A DNA stretch of 34,328 nucleotides. It comes from Pseudomonadota bacterium (GTDB lineage Bacteria > Pseudomonadota > Gammaproteobacteria > Burkholderiales > JAKAFK01). Of the stretch, positions 2,252-34,328 are shown in pieces. Position 1 is the stretch's first letter, and each line of letters starts with the position of its first letter. The position numbers were made by a program, and so were the translations under genes. The notes under the pieces were generated by a model. It worked only from the letters and a program-made list of their open reading frames with translations. It did not search any database and was not told the origin of the DNA. Location of the stretch: NCBI GenBank assembly GCA_021817985.1, contig JAKAFK010000043.1, positions 1-34,328 of the forward strand. The letters run 5' to 3'.

Positions 2252-2277
2252 TGACCGCGCCCGGTCGTTCTTTTTTT
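2252..2277 (+). terminator. Rho-independent terminator
   Basis: GACCG (2253-2257), a four-base loop CGCC, and CGGTC (2262-2266) form a short GC-rich stem, followed by GTTC and seven T residues (2271-2277). It lies 160 bases after the HD-GYP stop and just before phosphoketolase. The end of the T-tract overlaps the -35 box of the next promoter. Confidence 0.65.
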
Positions 2278-2304
2278 GACACCCGGCCCGGTGTTTCATA
2301 AAGT
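2276..2304 (+). promoter_or_regulatory. Sigma-70-type promoter for phosphoketolase
   Basis: A perfect -35 box TTGACA (2276-2281) is followed by a 17-base spacer and TAAAGT (2299-2304, 4 of 6 matches). Transcription would begin near 2311, giving a leader of about 95 bases before the ATG at 2405. Its -35 box uses the last two T residues of the upstream terminator. Confidence 0.5.
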
Positions 2305-2404
2305 GGGGGATGACCCCTGGAGCGTCATCTCGAGGCCCCATATCGCAGCCACGATGGGTGCCATGCTTGAATTTGCCCGCAATCATTTGCGTCAGGAGAT
2401 GGGA

Positions 2405-4780
2405 ATGGAAAGCTCAGAGAAAACGGACGCGGTGCCTCTGTCACCGGAGGAACTCCACGCCGTCGATGCCTATTGGCGGGCGGCCAACTATCTCTCGGTC
2501 GGCCAGATCTACCTGCTCGACAACCCCCTGCTTCGGGAGCCGCTCACGCTGGCGCATATCAAGCCCCGTTTGCTGGGGCATTGGGGAACGACGCCCGGTC
2601 TTAATTTCTTGTACGTGCATCTCAATCGCGTGATCAAGGCGCATGACGCCAACATGATTTTCGTGGCGGGCCCCGGGCATGGCGGACCGGCCTTGGTGGC
2701 CAATACCTGGCTCGAGGGGAGCTACAGCGAGCTCTATCCCAACATCGCGCAAGACGAAGACGGCATGCGGCACCTCTTCAGGCAGTTTTCGTTTCCGGGT
2801 GGCGTGGGCAGCCATGCCACGCCCGAGACACCGGGCTCCATCCATGAAGGGGGCGAGCTGGGCTATTCGATGTCTCACGCGTTCGGAGCGGCCTTCGACA
2901 ACCCGGATCTCGTCGTCGCCTGCGTCGTCGGCGACGGCGAGGCCGAAACCGGTCCGCTCGCGACCTCCTGGCATTCCAACAAATTTCTCAATCCGGCTCG
3001 GGATGGGGCCGTGCTCCCGATACTCCACCTGAATGGCTACAAGATCGCCAATCCCACCTTGCTGGCACGGATGCCCCGCGCACAGCTCTTGAGCCTGTTC
3101 GAGGGGTACGGATATCGTCCTCACGTCGTGGAAGGATCGGATCCGCGCCAGATGCACCAGAAAATGGCCGCCACGCTCGACGAGGTCATGGGCGAGATCC
3201 GCTCGATTCAGCGTGTGGCGAGAGAAACTGGAGATCTTGCCCAGCCCGTATGGCCGATGATCATCCTGATCTCCCCCAAGGGATGGACCGGCCCCAAGGA
3301 GGTCGACGGGAAGAAGGCTGAAGGGTTCTGGCGTTCGCATCAGGTGCCCTTCGCCAGCATGACGCCCGACCACCTGGCGCTGCTCGATGGTTGGATGAGG
3401 AGCTATCGGCCCGATGAGCTGTTCGATGCGCACGGCGCACCGATCGAGCTGCTGCGCGCGCTTCCGCCGGCCGGGACGCGCCGCATGGGGCTCAACCCAT
3501 ACGCCAATGGGGGGCTTTTGCTGCGTGAGTTGCGCCTGCCGGAGTTCCGCGAGTATGCCGTTGATGTCCCGGAGCCAGGGAGCATCGATGCCGAGGGAAC
3601 GCGCGTGATGGGGCGGTTGCTGCGCGATGTCATGCGGTTGAACGAAGATCGGGGGAATTTCCGGGTATTCGGGCCTGACGAGACGGCATCGAACCGCCTC
3701 GATGCGCTGTTCGAGGTCACCGAGCGGGCCTGGATGCCGAAGCGCTTGCCGGAGGACGAGCATCTGGCGCCGGATGGGCGGGTGATGGAGATCCTCTCCG
3801 AGCATACCTGCCAAGGCTGGCTCGAGGGCTACCTGCTGACCGGCCGCCATGGCTTGTTTTCCTGCTATGAGGCGTTCATCCACATCGTCGATTCCATGTT
3901 CAACCAGCATGCGAAGTGGCTCAAGATCAGCAAGGAGGTCCCTTGGCGCCACTCGATCGCCTCCTTGAACTATCTGTTGACCTCCCATGTCTGGCGCCAG
4001 GATCACAATGGCTTCTCGCATCAGGATCCCGGATTCGTCGATCATGTCGTCAACAAGAAAGCGGATATCATCCGCGTCTATCTGCCGCCCGACGCCAATA
4101 CGCTTCTCTATGTGACCGACCGGTGCCTGCGCTCGCGCGATCTCATCAACGTGATCGTCGCCGGGAAGCAGCCGGAGCTGCAGTGGCTGGACATGGAGGC
4201 AGCGATCAAGCATTGCACGGCCGGCGTCGGCATATGGGATTGGGCGAGCAACGATCAGGGCAGCGAGCCCGACGTCGTGATGGCGGCGGCCGGCGACGTG
4301 GCGACGCTGGAGACGTTGGCCGCCGTCAAGATTTTGCGGGAGCATCTGCCGGAGCTCAAGGTGCGTGTCGTCAACGTCGTCGACCTGATGACTCTGCAGC
4401 CGCACGAGGAGCATCCGCACGGCCTGTCGGACCGGGAATTCGAGACCTTGTTCACCAGCAACAAGCCGATTATTTTTGCCTACCACGGCTATCCCTGGCT
4501 GATCCACCGCCTGACCTACCGACGCCCTAACCACGATTCCATGCATGTGCGCGGCTATAAGGAGGAGGGAACGACGACGACGCCTTTCGACATGTGCGTG
4601 CGCAACGACCTCGACCGCTTCCACCTGGTAGCCGACGTGATTGATCGGGTTCCGCAGCTCGGCTACCGCGCGGCCTATCTCAAACTGTACGTGCGGGACA
4701 AGCTGATTGAGCACAAGGAGTATATCGCGCGCCACGGCGAAGATATGCCGGAGATCAGCCAGTGGCACTGGCCTGCATGA
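2405..4780 (+). CDS. xfp: Phosphoketolase (xylulose-5-P/fructose-6-P)
   Basis: A 791-residue thiamine-diphosphate enzyme of the usual length for the family. It splits xylulose 5-phosphate (and often fructose 6-phosphate) with phosphate into acetyl phosphate and an aldose phosphate. Family landmarks are the N-terminal [10 protein letters not shown] segment, GPGHGGP (about 89-95) and the ThDP/Mg site GDGEAETGP (about 176-184) with N-G-Y-K-I about 30 residues later. The XFP N, middle and C domains all look complete. I chose the ATG at 2405 because AGGAG (2394-2398) lies six bases upstream; longer in-frame starts add an atypical leader. It is a single-gene unit with its own promoter and terminator junction. 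In an autotroph it could shunt Calvin-cycle sugars to acetyl phosphate, but that role is inference. Confidence 0.96.
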
Positions 4781-29357: not shown

Positions 29358-29645
29358 TCATGCCTTGGGGGAGAATGCGACGCACCAGCCGTTGGGGCTG
29401 ATCGATCCGGCGACGACCTTGCAGGTCCCATTGGCCGTAGGCGAGCCGCCAGGAATGAACTGGATGCACTTGGAGCAGTGGTTGGCGCCATTGGGATGGT
29501 CGCGATACTGCATGGCCGCCTTGGGCACCTTCGCGGCTTCGGCGGTGCGGCTCGCGATCAGTCCGGGAACCACACTGAGGCCTGCCAGCACGGCGGCGCC
29601 TTTGAGAACCGAACGGCGGCTCATTTTCTTTCCGTTGTCTTCCAT
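29358..29645 (-). CDS. High-potential iron-sulfur protein (HiPIP/Iro type)
   Basis: A 95-residue periplasmic electron carrier. A Tat signal with S-R-R-S-V-L-K-G (9-16) and a hydrophobic stretch ends near A-E-A-A (about 35-38). The mature part has four Cys at 57, 60, 75 and 88, the pattern that ligates one 4Fe-4S cluster; the ending S-P-N-G-W-C-V-A-F is typical. M-Q-Y-R-D-H-P and C-K-V-V-A-G-S-I-S-P-N-G-W-C resemble the Iro protein of Acidithiobacillus. It likely takes electrons from or gives them to the bc1 complex encoded nearby. AGGAG lies nine bases before the ATG, and a near-consensus promoter is upstream. Confidence 0.93.
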   Translation of the reverse strand: MEDNGKKMSRRSVLKGAAVLAGLSVVPGLIASRTAEAAKVPKAAMQYRDHPNGANHCSKCIQFIPGGSPTANGTCKVVAGSISPNGWCVAFSPKA

Positions 29646-29720: not shown

Positions 29721-29749
29721 TTTATACACCGCATGACCCGCGGTGGCAA
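29721..29749 (-). promoter_or_regulatory. Strong sigma-70-type promoter for HiPIP
   Basis: On the minus strand TTGCCA (29744-29749, 5 of 6), a 17-base spacer, and TATAAA (29721-29726, 5 of 6). Transcription would start near 29714, giving a leader of about 70 bases to the ATG at 29645. This fits a protein made in large amounts. Confidence 0.65.
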
Positions 29750-29790
29750 TATGGCGCGAGGCCGCAGGCCCGCAGGGACAGGGCATAATC

Positions 29791-31170
29791 ATGCCGCAGG
29801 CAGACCGACGAGCGCAGCCGTCCGGCACGACACGGGTGTCTTCGCTGGTGCGCGCGCTCAAGCATCGTAACTATCGCCTGTTCTTCGGCGGGCAGATCAT
29901 TTCCCTCACCGGAACCTGGATGCAGTCGGTCGCGCAATCCTGGCTCGTCTACCGCCTTTCGGGTTCCAGCGTTTTGCTCGGCCTGGTGGGATTTGCCACG
30001 CAGATCCCCGTGTTTGCCTTGGCGGCCGTCGGTGGCACCGTCGCAGACCGGCACTCGCGCCATCGCATTCTGATCATCACGCAAAGCACCGCCATGGTGC
30101 TGGCCTTTGCGCTTGCGGCGCTGACGCTCTCGGCGCGTGTCGCCATATGGGAGATCTTTGTGCTCGCCACGCTGCTGGGGGTCGTGAATGCGTTCGATAT
30201 CCCCGCCCGGCAGGCGTTTGCCGTCGATATGGTGGGCAAGGCGGATCTCATCAACGCCATCGCACTCAATTCATCGATGGTCAATGGGGCGCGGGTGCTC
30301 GGCCCTGCGCTGGCCGGGATTCTGGTGGCCTCGGTGGGCGAGGGCTGGTGCTTCCTCTTGAATGGCGTGAGCTACATGGCCGTGATTGCCGGTTTGCTGG
30401 CCATGCGGCTCGCACCCCGCAAGGCGGTCGCGCATCATCCGCCGGCGCTTGCCCACATGGCGGAGGGCTTTCGTTACGTGGGGCGGACCCGGCCGGTGAG
30501 GGCGCTTCTCCTCTTGCTCGGGCTGGTCAGCTTGTCCGGGATGCCTTACGCCGTCCTGATGCCGATATTCGCCGGGCGCATCCTGCATGGTGGCGCGCGC
30601 GGGTTGGGCATCCTGATGGCGATGGCGGGCGCCGGCGCGCTCGTGGGCGCACTCAGCTTGGCGGCACGACGCCATGTTCACGGGCTTGGTCGCTGGATCG
30701 CCGGCGCCGCGGCAGGATTCGGCGCGAGCCTGACGTTGTTCTCGCTCTCCCATTGGTTCTGGGTGTCTGCGTTGCTCTTGCTGCCCGTCGGCTTCTTCGT
30801 GATGGTTCAGATGGCTGCAAGCAACACGCTGATTCAGGTCATGGTGCCTGATGCGCTGCGTGGCCGCGTGATGGCCGTCTATTCGATGATGTTCATGGGG
30901 ATGGCCCCGTTTGGCGCTCTGACCGCCGGCTTGGTGGCGGCCCGGTTCGGCGCCCCGCGGACGGTGGCGGCAGGCGGCATCATTTGCCTGGCCGGCGCCA
31001 TGGCCTTCGCGCTTTTCCTGCCCAGGCTTCGGGGTGAGGTGCGGGCGTTGATCGTGGCGCAGGAAATGACGGGCGGTGAGCCTTCGGAAGAGATGACGGG
31101 CCGGGGCTTGAGCGCGGAGTTCGACGGGGGCCGTGCGTCCTCGCGGGCTCAGGAGACGTCGCGCCAATAG
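29791..31170 (+). CDS. MFS transporter (EntS-like)
   Basis: A 459-residue major facilitator protein with about 12 helices and a cytoplasmic start. It has R-N-Y-R-L-F-F-G-G-Q-I-I-S-L-T-G-T-W-M-Q near residue 30 and G-x-x-A-D-R-H-S-R-H-R (about 82-92), the MFS motif A region. N-A-F-D-I-P-A-R-Q-A-F follows near 130, typical of the EntS/MFS_3 exporters. The substrate is unknown; relatives export siderophores or drugs. The ATG at 29791 is preceded by a GGACAGGG-like region; an in-frame start at 29743 adds an odd leader. It is divergent from HiPIP, and its last 22 bases overlap the 3' end of petC on the other strand. Confidence 0.88.
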   Translation: MPQADRRAQPSGTTRVSSLVRALKHRNYRLFFGGQIISLTGTWMQSVAQSWLVYRLSGSSVLLGLVGFATQIPVFALAAVGGTVADRHSRHRILIITQSTAMVLAFALAALTLSARVAIWEIFVLATLLGVVNAFDIPARQAFAVDMVGKADLINAIALNSSMVNGARVLGPALAGILVASVGEGWCFLLNGVSYMAVIAGLLAMRLAPRKAVAHHPPALAHMAEGFRYVGRTRPVRALLLLLGLVSLSGMPYAVLMPIFAGRILHGGARGLGILMAMAGAGALVGALSLAARRHVHGLGRWIAGAAAGFGASLTLFSLSHWFWVSALLLLPVGFFVMVQMAASNTLIQVMVPDALRGRVMAVYSMMFMGMAPFGALTAGLVAARFGAPRTVAAGGIICLAGAMAFALFLPRLRGEVRALIVAQEMTGGEPSEEMTGRGLSAEFDGGRASSRAQETSRQ

Positions 31171-31832
31171 GCCCGCTTCATGAGGTAGGCAACGACCGCA
31201 AAGAGGACCACGAACCCCAGGGCATAGGGGCCGAGGCGTTCGCGCTCGAGCTTGGAAGGGTCCGAGGTGTATTCAAGCCATACGGTGATGGCGCCGATGA
31301 CTTGGTCCGCCTGTTTGGGCGTCAGGCGACCGCGCTGGATGAGCCGGCCCTTCGCGTTCTCTACGCCGCTGATCGGCGCCAGGACGTTGGGCATGGCTGC
31401 ATTGGGGAAGAGGCGGTTGTTCCATCCGCTCGGGCGCGTCGGATCGAAATAGAAGCTCCGCAGATAGGTGTAGATCCAGGCGCCTCCCCGCAGGCGAGCT
31501 TCGAGGGTGAGATCCGGAGGGGCCACCCCGAACCAGGCCGTGGCGTCCTTGGCGGACAGGGTGGGGACCATCCCGCGTGCGAGGTGCGCGCCGCTGGGAA
31601 ACATCAACTGCTGCCGGACGGCATCTTTCGAGAAGCCGAGATCCCGGGTAAGCCTATCGTAGCGTATCCATTTCACGCTGTGGCAGGAAAGGCAGTATTG
31701 CGCGAACCACTGCGCGCCGCGGCGGATCGTGGCCCGGTTGAAGGCAACGGGCGGGGCGACGAGCGGCGGGGTCTGTGCGGCTGCGTGCACCGCGATGACC
31801 GCCAGCAAGAGGGCTGCGAGGCGTGCGATCAT
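31149..31832 (-). CDS. petC: Cytochrome c1 of the bc1 complex
   Basis: A 227-residue protein with an N-terminal signal peptide (about 1-19). The haem c attachment site is C-L-S-C-H (47-51). F-P-N-A-A-M-P-N-V-L (about 155) contains the probable Met haem ligand, and a C-terminal membrane anchor follows (about 203-222), ending Y-W-R-D-V-S. It accepts electrons from the Rieske centre and passes them to a soluble carrier, here plausibly HiPIP. Its ATG overlaps the petB stop (ATGA), so the two are translated together. The 3' end overlaps the MFS gene on the other strand. Confidence 0.95.
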   Translation of the reverse strand: MIARLAALLLAVIAVHAAAQTPPLVAPPVAFNRATIRRGAQWFAQYCLSCHSVKWIRYDRLTRDLGFSKDAVRQQLMFPSGAHLARGMVPTLSAKDATAWFGVAPPDLTLEARLRGGAWIYTYLRSFYFDPTRPSGWNNRLFPNAAMPNVLAPISGVENAKGRLIQRGRLTPKQADQVIGAITVWLEYTSDPSKLERERLGPYALGFVVLFAVVAYLMKRAYWRDVS

Positions 31833-33040
31833 GAGGCGGAAATCCTTTCCGGGACGGGGCGTGTGGGTTCGAGGCGGCTGACGATGGGCAGGCTCAGAAA
31901 GAACAGAAAATACAGTGCCAGGAGGATACGGGCGGGCGGCAGCAGCGCCGGGATGGCAGGTTGCATGCCGATCCATCCCAAAGCGACCAGGGTGAGGACG
32001 AACACGATCACCATCCACCGGTAGACCGGGCGGTAACGCGATGACTTCACCGGGTTGTGGTCGAGCCAGGGCAGCAGGAAAGGCGCAATGATCGCGGCAA
32101 ACAGAATGCCGATGCCGACGGCTTTGTTCGGGACCGCGCGCAGCATCGCATAATAGGGGGCCAGGTACCAGGCGGGCGTGATCTCCGGGGGGGTCTTCAA
32201 GGGATTGGCGGGGCTGAAATTGTAGGTTTCGATGAATAGTCCATGGAAGGTGGGTGCATAGAACACGATCGCGCAGAAGACGACCAGAAAGACGCCCACG
32301 CCGAACATATCCTTGACGGTGTAATAGGGATGAAACGGGATGCCGTCCACCGGTTGTCCGCGGGCGTCCAAATGTTCCCGAATCTCCACGCCATCCGGAT
32401 TGTTGGAGCCGACCTCGTGGAGCGCCAGCAAGTGCGTGAGGATCAGGACGGCAAGGAGCGCGGGCAGCAGCACGGCATGAAAGGCCACGAAGCGCGTCAG
32501 GGTCGGCGTCCCGACCCCGAAGCTTCCGCGCAGCACGGAGGCGAGCCAGCCGCCCACATAGGGGATGGCGGCAATGATGGAGGTGATGACCTGCCCGCCC
32601 CAGTAAGACATGTTGCCGAACGGAAGCACATAGCCGAAGTAGGCCTCGCCCATGAGGCAGACATACAATGCGACGCCGATCAGCCAGAGGAGCTCGCGCG
32701 GCCGCTTGAACGATCCATAGAGATAGCCCCGCAGCATGTGCAGGTAGATGACGACGAAGAACAGGGACGCCCCCGTGGTGTGGATGTAGCGGACCAGCCA
32801 GCCCCACTTCACGTCGTACATGATGCTCTGGACGGAATTGAACGCCGCCTTGGCGCTCGGCTGATAGTGGGCGAGGAGCAGGATCCCGGAAATGATTTGC
32901 GTGGCGAACACGAGCAGGGCGAGGGATCCGAAGAAATACCAGAAGTTGAAATTCTTGGGCGCGTAATACTCGGTCATGCTCGTGCGCACAAGGACGCTGA
33001 AAGGAAATCGCCGGTCCACCCATGCGGTCAGTCGGCCCAT
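31829..33040 (-). CDS. petB: Cytochrome b of the bc1 complex
   Basis: A 403-residue protein with eight membrane helices. Haem ligands are H87/H101 and H188/H203; the 15-residue spacing of the second pair and the S-N-N-P-D-G segment (about 212-217) fit beta/gamma proteobacteria. The Qo-site motif, usually PEWY, reads P-A-W-Y (289-292), so the Glu is missing. G-G-Q-V-I-T-S (148-154) follows W147, as expected. GGAGG lies about nine bases before the ATG. It is the middle gene of petA-petB-petC, 64 bases after petA, and overlaps petC by four bases. Confidence 0.97.
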   Translation of the reverse strand: MGRLTAWVDRRFPFSVLVRTSMTEYYAPKNFNFWYFFGSLALLVFATQIISGILLLAHYQPSAKAAFNSVQSIMYDVKWGWLVRYIHTTGASLFFVVIYLHMLRGYLYGSFKRPRELLWLIGVALYVCLMGEAYFGYVLPFGNMSYWGGQVITSIIAAIPYVGGWLASVLRGSFGVGTPTLTRFVAFHAVLLPALLAVLILTHLLALHEVGSNNPDGVEIREHLDARGQPVDGIPFHPYYTVKDMFGVGVFLVVFCAIVFYAPTFHGLFIETYNFSPANPLKTPPEITPAWYLAPYYAMLRAVPNKAVGIGILFAAIIAPFLLPWLDHNPVKSSRYRPVYRWMVIVFVLTLVALGWIGMQPAIPALLPPARILLALYFLFFLSLPIVSRLEPTRPVPERISAS

Positions 33041-33104: not shown

Positions 33105-33710
33105 TCAGCAAAGTTTGCTTTCTGGATACATGGCGGTCACGGCGACCTGTTTCTCGTCTTCACTGAAATGGTAGAGGGGAATCGCCATGTTGCGGGGTGC
33201 CGGCACGCCCTTGAACACGCGCCCCGACAGGTCGTAGAGCGAGCCATGGCAGGGACAGTGGAAGCCGCCGAGCCAGCGCGGGCCGACCGAACCCTTCCGG
33301 GGCTCGTACAACGGGGTGCAGCACAGATGGGTGCACACCCGGACCATCACGAGCCACTGCGGCTTGAGGGACCGGAATCGATTCTTGCACTCCGGGGGCT
33401 GCTGCGGCACCTCGCAGTTCGGGTCGCGCAGCAGCGTTTCCACGGCCTGCAAGGTGGCCAGCATCTCGGGTGTTCGGTGCACCACGATCAGTGGCTTGCT
33501 TTGCCACGGTACGGTCACCTGCATGCCGGGCTCAATGGGGGACAAGGCGACCGTCGTCGCGGCGGCCGCTTTGACGCTGGCATCCGGTTCCAGGCTTTCG
33601 ACCAGGGGCACGATCACGTATGCCGTGCCCACGGCCCCGAGAAGGGCCGTCGCGAGCGTCAGGAAACGGCGTCTTCCTGCATTGGCGGGGAGGAGGGGCT
33701 GGGCGGTCAT
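33105..33710 (-). CDS. petA: Rieske iron-sulfur subunit of the bc1 complex
   Basis: 201 residues. An N-terminal anchor with a Tat-like G-R-R-R-F-L-T (12-18) and one membrane helix precede the Rieske fold. The 2Fe-2S ligands are in C-T-H-L-C and C-P-C-H-G-S, with the disulfide Cys included; G-R-V-F-K-G-V-P-A-P follows. This is the mobile subunit that takes the first electron from quinol. The start is uncertain: the ATG at 33710 gives a normal leader, and an ATG at 33737 would add nine residues. Neither has a clear Shine-Dalgarno. It follows the peroxiredoxin gene by about 15-40 bases and precedes petB. Confidence 0.94.
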   Translation of the reverse strand: MTAQPLLPANAGRRRFLTLATALLGAVGTAYVIVPLVESLEPDASVKAAAATTVALSPIEPGMQVTVPWQSKPLIVVHRTPEMLATLQAVETLLRDPNCEVPQQPPECKNRFRSLKPQWLVMVRVCTHLCCTPLYEPRKGSVGPRWLGGFHCPCHGSLYDLSGRVFKGVPAPRNMAIPLYHFSEDEKQVAVTAMYPESKLC

Positions 33711-33750: not shown

Positions 33751-34328
33751 TCAGAGCGCCTGGGCATGCTGCGCGAGATACTCGGAAAGGGCCTCGGCGT
33801 TCGTCTTGAGGCCCGTTTCGCCCTTCTGCCAGCCTGCCGGGCAGACTTCTCCGTGCTCCTCGTGGAATTGCAGTGCATCGACCATGCGCAGCGCCTCGTC
33901 CACGTTACGCCCGAGCGGCAGGTCGTTCACCAGTTGATGGCGGACGACGGCTTGGCGATCCAGAAGGAAGGTCGCGCGCAGCGCCACTGCGTCATCGAGG
34001 AGGACGTCATAGGCGCGTGAGATCGCGCGGGTCGTGTCGGCCACCATGGGAAATCCGAGCGGGCCGACGCCGCCTCGGGCCACGGGGGTCTTCCGCCAAG
34101 CCAGATGCGTATATTCGGAGTCTCCGCTCACCGCCACCACGCGTGTGTGACGTGCATGAAACTCCTGGAGTCGGTGGTCAAACGCGATGATTTCCGTGGG
34201 ACATACGAACGTGAAGTCCATCGGGTAAAAGAAGACGATCGCATACTGGCCGGCGATGTGGCGGTAAAGATTGAAATCCGCGACCAGCGAGTCGTCGCTC
34301 ATCACCGCTGCCGCGGTAAAGTCTGGTG
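33751..34328 (-). CDS. 2-Cys peroxiredoxin, 5' end outside window (partial)
   Basis: 192 residues are visible; the frame continues through the window edge, where it reads P-D-F-T-A-A-A-V, so the true start lies outside. The peroxidatic Cys is in D-F-T-F-V-C-P-T-E (typical of the AhpC/Prx1 class) and the resolving Cys in G-E-V-C-P-A-G-W. The enzyme reduces peroxides using thioredoxin or an AhpF/AhpD-like partner. It lies immediately upstream of petA on the same strand and may be co-transcribed with the bc1 genes, giving oxidative protection at a respiratory complex. A GTG at 34305 is internal, not the start. Confidence 0.93.
   Translation of the reverse strand, partial: PDFTAAAVMSDDSLVADFNLYRHIAGQYAIVFFYPMDFTFVCPTEIIAFDHRLQEFHARHTRVVAVSGDSEYTHLAWRKTPVARGGVGPLGFPMVADTTRAISRAYDVLLDDAVALRATFLLDRQAVVRHQLVNDLPLGRNVDEALRMVDALQFHEEHGEVCPAGWQKGETGLKTNAEALSEYLAQHAQAL

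Follow-up and report, generated by a model that had tools for sequence, protein, structure and literature searches.

The window analyzed here is a 34,328-nucleotide contig (JAKAFK010000043.1 of assembly GCA_021817985.1) from a Pseudomonadota bacterium of the order Burkholderiales, and it carries petABC, an operon for a cytochrome bc1 complex whose cytochrome b reads PAWY where the complexes of Rhodobacter capsulatus and mitochondria have PEWY at the quinol oxidation (Qo) site. With a probability that we put at roughly 0.6, this operon and a nearby gene for a high-potential iron-sulfur protein (HiPIP) represent an acquired bc1-HiPIP unit of the Fe(II)- or sulfur-oxidizer type, as in Acidithiobacillus and Acidiferrobacter, most likely run uphill. 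The identity of these genes as a pet-type bc1-HiPIP unit is the firmer part of this proposal and is favored, while the uphill direction, which is argued by analogy, stands at about even odds.

The petABC locus and its PAWY motif

29358..29645, minus strand: HiPIP, Iro-like (PF01355, TAT_signal), the probable electron partner of the complex
29743-31170, strand opposite to petABC and convergent: MFS gene, between petC and the HiPIP gene
31149..31832, minus strand: petC, cytochrome c1 (PF02167), with a single haem site, CLSCH; overlapping with the end of petB
31829..33040, minus strand: petB, cytochrome b, 403 aa (translation, PF00032 match, invariant haem His, tree); the second, divergent copy in the genome
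32165..32176, minus strand: PAWY motif, petB residues 289-292
32171-32173, minus strand: GCC, the Ala codon of PAWY
32228..32230, minus strand: Glu271 of the petB ef loop, at the position of R. capsulatus H276 in the alignment; putative alternative proton acceptor
33105..33710, minus strand: petA, Rieske iron-sulfur protein (TIGR01416, 217.8 bits); start at the Met of MTAQPLLP
33318..33335, minus strand: Rieske cluster motif CTHLCC; the other bc1 of the genome has CTHLGC

The plus strand of 31829-33040 is rich in stops, and the minus strand holds an intact 403-aa cytochrome b frame whose translation contains LKTPPEITPAWYLAPYYAMLRAVPNK, with PAWY at residues 289-292. The protein has the features of a bc1 cytochrome b: it is full length, it has the Cytochrom_B_C domain, its gene lies between petA and petC in a single petA-petB-petC operon, and it retains H87, H101, H188, and H203, the four histidines that ligate haem, each of which is His in all 170 aligned sequences. 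Residue 75 (Y for R) was considered as the haem-propionate Arg, a reading abandoned because a count from the haem His equates R. capsulatus R94 with window R84, a conserved residue.

The motif described in the first-pass annotation, which named no strand, is thus borne out by translation, and it recurs in the sole other species of the genus compared (G001), whose cytochrome b is 94.5% identical and has PAWY with the same GCC codon, in a locus (L112) syntenic with the window over 11,692 aligned bp at 87.7% identity. Between the two species petB has a dN of 0.025 and a dS of 0.238, and the ratio of about 0.1 indicates purifying selection. Because the sibling species has the same motif and the same codon in a gene under such selection, PAWY is regarded as real and conserved. 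A sequencing error at the Ala codon, which the annotation had named as a way in which it could be wrong, or a decaying gene would have to be reconciled with an intact frame and with an identical codon at a syntenic locus of the second species, and unless both assemblies contain the same artefact we give this explanation almost no weight.

Origin of the window bc1 complex

The genome has two bc1 loci, of which the window copy is the divergent one. In trees of cytochrome b, the larger of which held 131 of 142 distinct rows after removal of the very long L020 and ten near-identical rows, the other copy, with PLWY, clusters with betaproteobacterial genes, and is therefore as expected from descent, while the window copy lies far away. 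Forcing the two cytochrome b kinds of the genus together cost 40.6 log-likelihood units (p-AU 0.0003, approximately unbiased test), and duplication within the genus was rejected as the origin of the window copy on this result, with long branches as a caution.

The closest group found for the window copy comprises 18 genes for cytochrome b, all with PPWY, in families f217 and f235. In a tree of 65 of the 170 distinct aligned sequences from which the Qo columns had been removed, the window genus still joins nine of these 18 at a support of 99/98. Fourteen diagnostic cytochrome b columns likewise tie the genus to the clade; some of these are among the Qo columns that the tree excluded. The Rieske protein gives the same picture: C[TN]HLCC, with an extra Cys relative to the usual C[TS]HLGC, occurs in 23 of 174 petA loci, and all 23 belong to the window genus or the clade. 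Counting repeated copies a single time leaves 19 distinct genes, and two of the loci yielded no motif. In addition, a HiPIP 67-72% identical to that of the window adjoins petC in four f235 loci (L155, L158, L161, and L165). Taken from sequence comparison, the window petABC is probably a second, divergent bc1 that was acquired horizontally. PAWY was also tried as a mark of the clade and rejected, as it occurs elsewhere (L063, L118, and L119) and the clade otherwise has PPWY.

Candidate genes for Fe(II) oxidation in the genome and its relatives

The window HiPIP matches NF041615 (Feoxidase_Iro) over its full length at 98.6 bits, not reaching the cut-off of 100, and it is called Iro-like because the score falls just below that value. 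In the clade, locus L151 of genome G604 has the gene order cycA-sdrA-petA-petB-petC. Excerpts of PMC10654088 and PMC2754497 give the same order for the pet operon that serves Fe(II) oxidation in Acidithiobacillus and Acidiferrobacter. Rusticyanin scored above its curated cut-off in two clade genomes, G604 and G771; of the 16 genomes searched, a further 7 gave only weaker matches.

A Cyc2-like gene near one rusticyanin gene of G771 (L193), recognized by its head motif and by this location and matching no NCBIfam model, was used as a query for Cyc2. This query found no match in G604; it found one homologue in G001 and two in the window's genome (39% and 38% identical to the query), with CSACH or CEACH heads.

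L207 (contig C33) 1781-3280, plus strand: Cyc2-like protein with a single N-terminal CxxCH
L208 (contig C17) 7515-8855, minus strand: Cyc2-like protein with a single N-terminal CxxCH

Both the window's genome and G001 also encode RuBisCO, so that, from genes alone, the combination expected of a Cyc2-type Fe(II) oxidizer, a CxxCH-headed Cyc2 homologue of porin size together with autotrophy genes, is present. UbiG scored above its cut-off in the window's genome and MenB was not found there, the futalosine pathway not having been searched. A reasonable guess from this gene content is that the organism is an autotrophic Fe(II) oxidizer using ubiquinone, and it may grow at low pH. The Cyc2-like proteins are found here in a genome of betaproteobacterial type, and family f9 of the same order has them too.

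The first-pass annotation had suggested that PAWY may reflect acidic surroundings or reverse electron flow. Such a setting gains indirect support from the bc1 clade, from rusticyanin in two clade genomes, and from the organism's own Cyc2 and RuBisCO genes; PAWY as such lends it none, as three further PAWY genes lie elsewhere in the tree and the nearest relatives have PPWY.

Comparison with known pet operons and direction of electron flow

Compared by its published description, the Fe(II)-oxidation pet operon resembles the window locus in combining petABC with a nearby Iro-like HiPIP and in providing a bc1 additional to the ordinary one, in a genome with Cyc2 homologues and RuBisCO. In certain strains of A. 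ferrooxidans and A. ferrianus, the iro gene lies downstream of this operon, as an excerpt of PMC10654088 describes. The window locus differs in the convergent MFS gene that separates petC from the HiPIP gene and in having PAWY where the related operons of our sample have PPWY. The petII operon of A. ferrooxidans, which in the available portion of PMC2754497 encodes a second bc1, cytochrome c4, SdrA2, and Hip, is alike in that a HiPIP gene follows petC, and unlike in that neither sdrA2 nor the cytochrome c4 gene has a counterpart at the window locus.

If the proposal is correct, the window complex would exchange electrons between ubiquinone and a pool of HiPIP or cytochrome c in the periplasm. 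Uphill flow would then supply quinol for NADH while the cell oxidizes Fe(II), and the PLWY complex would do the ordinary forward work. The bc1 of iron-grown A. ferrooxidans reportedly works in reverse and not forward, to go by the title of a 2002 study by Brasseur, and by analogy with that enzyme the window complex would draw periplasmic electrons uphill to ubiquinone.

Several observations weigh against this interpretation. A profile search found no rusticyanin in the window's genome. Neither sdrA nor cycA was matched in the window or in 19 kb of the sibling's sequence, for which reason we call the unit pet-like and do not count it as a member of the Fe(II)-oxidizer pet operon type. The placement in the clade is also sensitive to sampling: long branches meet in the tree built without Qo columns, the window moves to family f77 with a support of 91 when the PPWY rows are left out, and identity does not discriminate, at 0.53-0.61 to the 18 clade genes versus up to 0.60 to f77. 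Among 18 f217 genomes, 12 have one cytochrome b match, 3 have none, and 3 have more than one, so that a complex of the PPWY type cannot in every case be a dedicated second enzyme. Finally, the HiPIP gene of A. ferrooxidans sits in the sulfur-induced petII operon, which is thought to run forward (PMC2754497, in part).

This last point is part of the basis of an alternative for the direction of flow, in which a petII-like complex runs forward, oxidizing ubiquinol that derives from sulfur or other donors and passing the electrons to the adjacent HiPIP. The presence of a HiPIP both in the window locus and next to petC in the four f235 loci fits such an arrangement, as does the membership of hip in petII (excerpt of PMC2754497). 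The genome already has an ordinary PLWY bc1 for forward flow, however, and Cyc2 with RuBisCO points to autotrophy driven by Fe(II), for which uphill flow is required; neither argument is decisive, and we consider forward operation a serious contender with somewhat better than one chance in three.

Loss of the PEWY carboxylate across the group

The first-pass annotation had considered the Ala notable for removing the carboxylate of PEWY. This is not what sets the gene apart, as the group was already without the Glu. Our motif census covered 111 beta- and gammaproteobacterial cytochrome b loci, taken from relatives and from best-matching public genomes and including the window (L002), the second copy of its genome, and one duplicate pair (L008 = L039). 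PVWY was found in 83 of these, PLWY in 23, PAWY in 2, and PLWF, PIWY, and PEWY in 1 each, so that 110 of the 111 loci, the window among them, lack the PEWY of R. capsulatus and mitochondrial bc1. PEWY is no defining feature of bc1 cytochrome b in the sampled beta- and gammaproteobacteria, and the common assumption needs correcting to the extent that complexes without this Glu are the rule there. The loss is old and lineage-wide, and replacing Val, Leu, or Pro with Ala is a minor change. A second petB, which the annotation had proposed looking for, does exist according to a PF00032 search; it has PLWY and not the PEWY envisaged.

A generic pattern for the motif matched 355 of 399 genomes of the order, with V, T, or L and no E at the second position, by eye, among the matches listed. 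These include PTWY, another carboxylate-free variant, in nine genomes of family f8 (G056, G100, G208, G238, G268, G297, G326, G353, and G379). The sole PEWY of the census, L020 (G037, family f37 of the same order), has a very long tree branch, and this gene may have been transferred from another class. In a 2025 study of sequences selected for their high similarity, Glu is reported at 94% (PMC12199298, in part), the opposite of what is seen in the present sample, which consists nearly entirely of beta- and gammaproteobacteria.

PAWY itself is rare. Among the 399 genomes of the order, two contained the DNA pattern T-P-x-x-I-x-P-A-W-[YF], namely that of the window and G324, and the locus of the latter (L115) gave no cytochrome b match; G001 escapes this pattern, having V where I is required. 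In the class, relaxing the pattern gave matches in 3 of 369 genomes, which were the window's own, G402, and G685, the latter two confirmed as cytochrome b. The five PAWY genes seen come from the two species of the window genus, G402 (L119), G685 (L118), and L063, and the last three are placed elsewhere in the tree than the genus, L118 and L119 being long rows joined with a warning. The annotation had stated that it would fail if PAWY proved common and unlinked to physiology; the motif is far from common, and it is not tied to the Fe(II)-type clade either. A literature search, to which Kao and Hunte 2014 was external, returned no statement on PAWY, on PVWY, or on Acidithiobacillus with PPWY, and papers containing the string "PPWY" were, judged by title, on unrelated subjects.

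Linked changes in the Qo pocket and a possible proton route

Pocket residues are given in R. capsulatus numbering by count from Y147 and E295, with the usual beta/gammaproteobacterial residue first, and the counts are not independent events, as the sequences share ancestry. The 18 relatives read PPWYLAPYY or PPWYLAPFY, with PFGNLSYWAG in the cd1 region, and the window genus reads PAWYLAPYY, with PFGNMSYWGG. Relative to 150 other sequences, these genes combine A or P at 295 with the changes W151F, Q153N, A159G, F298L, and T299A; N153 also occurs in 15 of the 150, and each of the remaining pocket changes in 1 to 4. The small Ala (Pro in the relatives) would accordingly be read as one of several linked pocket changes and not as a lone loss of function. 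M154L and N279T, at the sites of R. capsulatus suppressors, are present in all 18 PPWY relatives and in none of the 150 others, and the window genus keeps M and N. The PPWY relatives (L122 and L155-L171, from f217 and f235) also have Ala at window position 148, which we take to be the position of yeast G143, and the window genus keeps Gly there.

Two reference enzymes place these changes in context. The ordinary PVWY/PLWY bc1 of beta- and gammaproteobacteria, for which PDB 8smr, presumably from Pseudomonas aeruginosa, is the sequence match, shares with the window protein the lack of a motif Glu, a longer ef loop with a Glu, Tyr147, and the haem His, whereas the window has F151, N153, G159, A295, L298, and A299, with CTHLCC in the Rieske protein. 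The PEWY enzymes of R. capsulatus and mitochondria (PMC10583091, in part) share the haem ligands, Tyr147, and the Trp and Tyr of the motif; in the window, Ala replaces Glu295, Glu replaces His276, and the ef loop has three extra residues.

How protons leave the quinone with no acid at the PEWY position is suggested by two residues. By alignment with the Paracoccus cytochrome b, the residue corresponding to R. capsulatus H276 is Glu in 168 of the 170 sequences and Asp in 2, and Tyr147 (window Tyr137) is invariant (170/170), which together make the ef-loop carboxylate a candidate replacement for the Glu. The ef-loop Glu and Tyr147 are possible remaining proton acceptors, and quinone protons could pass via Glu271, Tyr137, and water. 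In R. capsulatus, the E295V complex is functional and M154T or N279S revertants restore proton transfer in the absence of both H276 and E295, as reported in excerpts of PMC10583091. A strict exchange of the PEWY Glu for the ef-loop Glu was also considered and is weakened by L020, which has both. These proteins offer natural test cases for Qo proton routes independent of Glu295.

Whether the PAWY Ala has a function of its own is a separate question. Under neutral drift, any small or medium hydrophobic residue would suffice once the Glu is gone, and the Ala would carry no functional meaning. Relatives variously carry V, L, T, I, P, or A here, which accords with this, as do the scatter of PAWY over the lineages of L063, L118, and L119 and the function of R. 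capsulatus E295V (PMC10583091, in part), whereas the retention of Ala in both species of the genus does not. In 21 of 170 sequences, moreover, L298-A299 accompanies P (18) or A (3) at 295, and it never accompanies V, L, or I; this pairing is mostly explained by shared ancestry, L119 being its sole case outside the clade. We regard drift as a credible explanation, if short of an even chance. Somewhat more doubtful is the idea that the clade comprises bc1 complexes of Fe(II) oxidizers in which the pocket was rebuilt as a set (P or A for Glu, W151F, Q153N, A159G, F298L, T299A, and Rieske C-x-H-L-C-C, with M154L and N279T in the PPWY branch), perhaps so that quinone can be reduced at Qo from the acid side when electrons flow uphill. 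As a natural set of linked Qo changes in about 20 species, the clade could show how bc1 is tuned for reverse flow in acid. The remaining explanation is that PAWY reflects a quinone of unusual potential, the annotation having proposed a high-potential one. PPWY is usually linked to low-potential quinones. The results for UbiG and MenB, the latter with the limit on its search given above, speak against an unusual quinone, as does the Rieske protein, whose sequence CPCHGSLYD retains the Ser and Tyr associated with a high-potential cluster, and we consider this explanation very improbable.

Other features of the window

33751-34305, minus strand: AhpC/1-Cys peroxiredoxin-like gene, directly upstream of petA and kept in the sibling species
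2276-4780, plus strand: phosphoketolase (XFP) gene; the genome encodes RuBisCO as well
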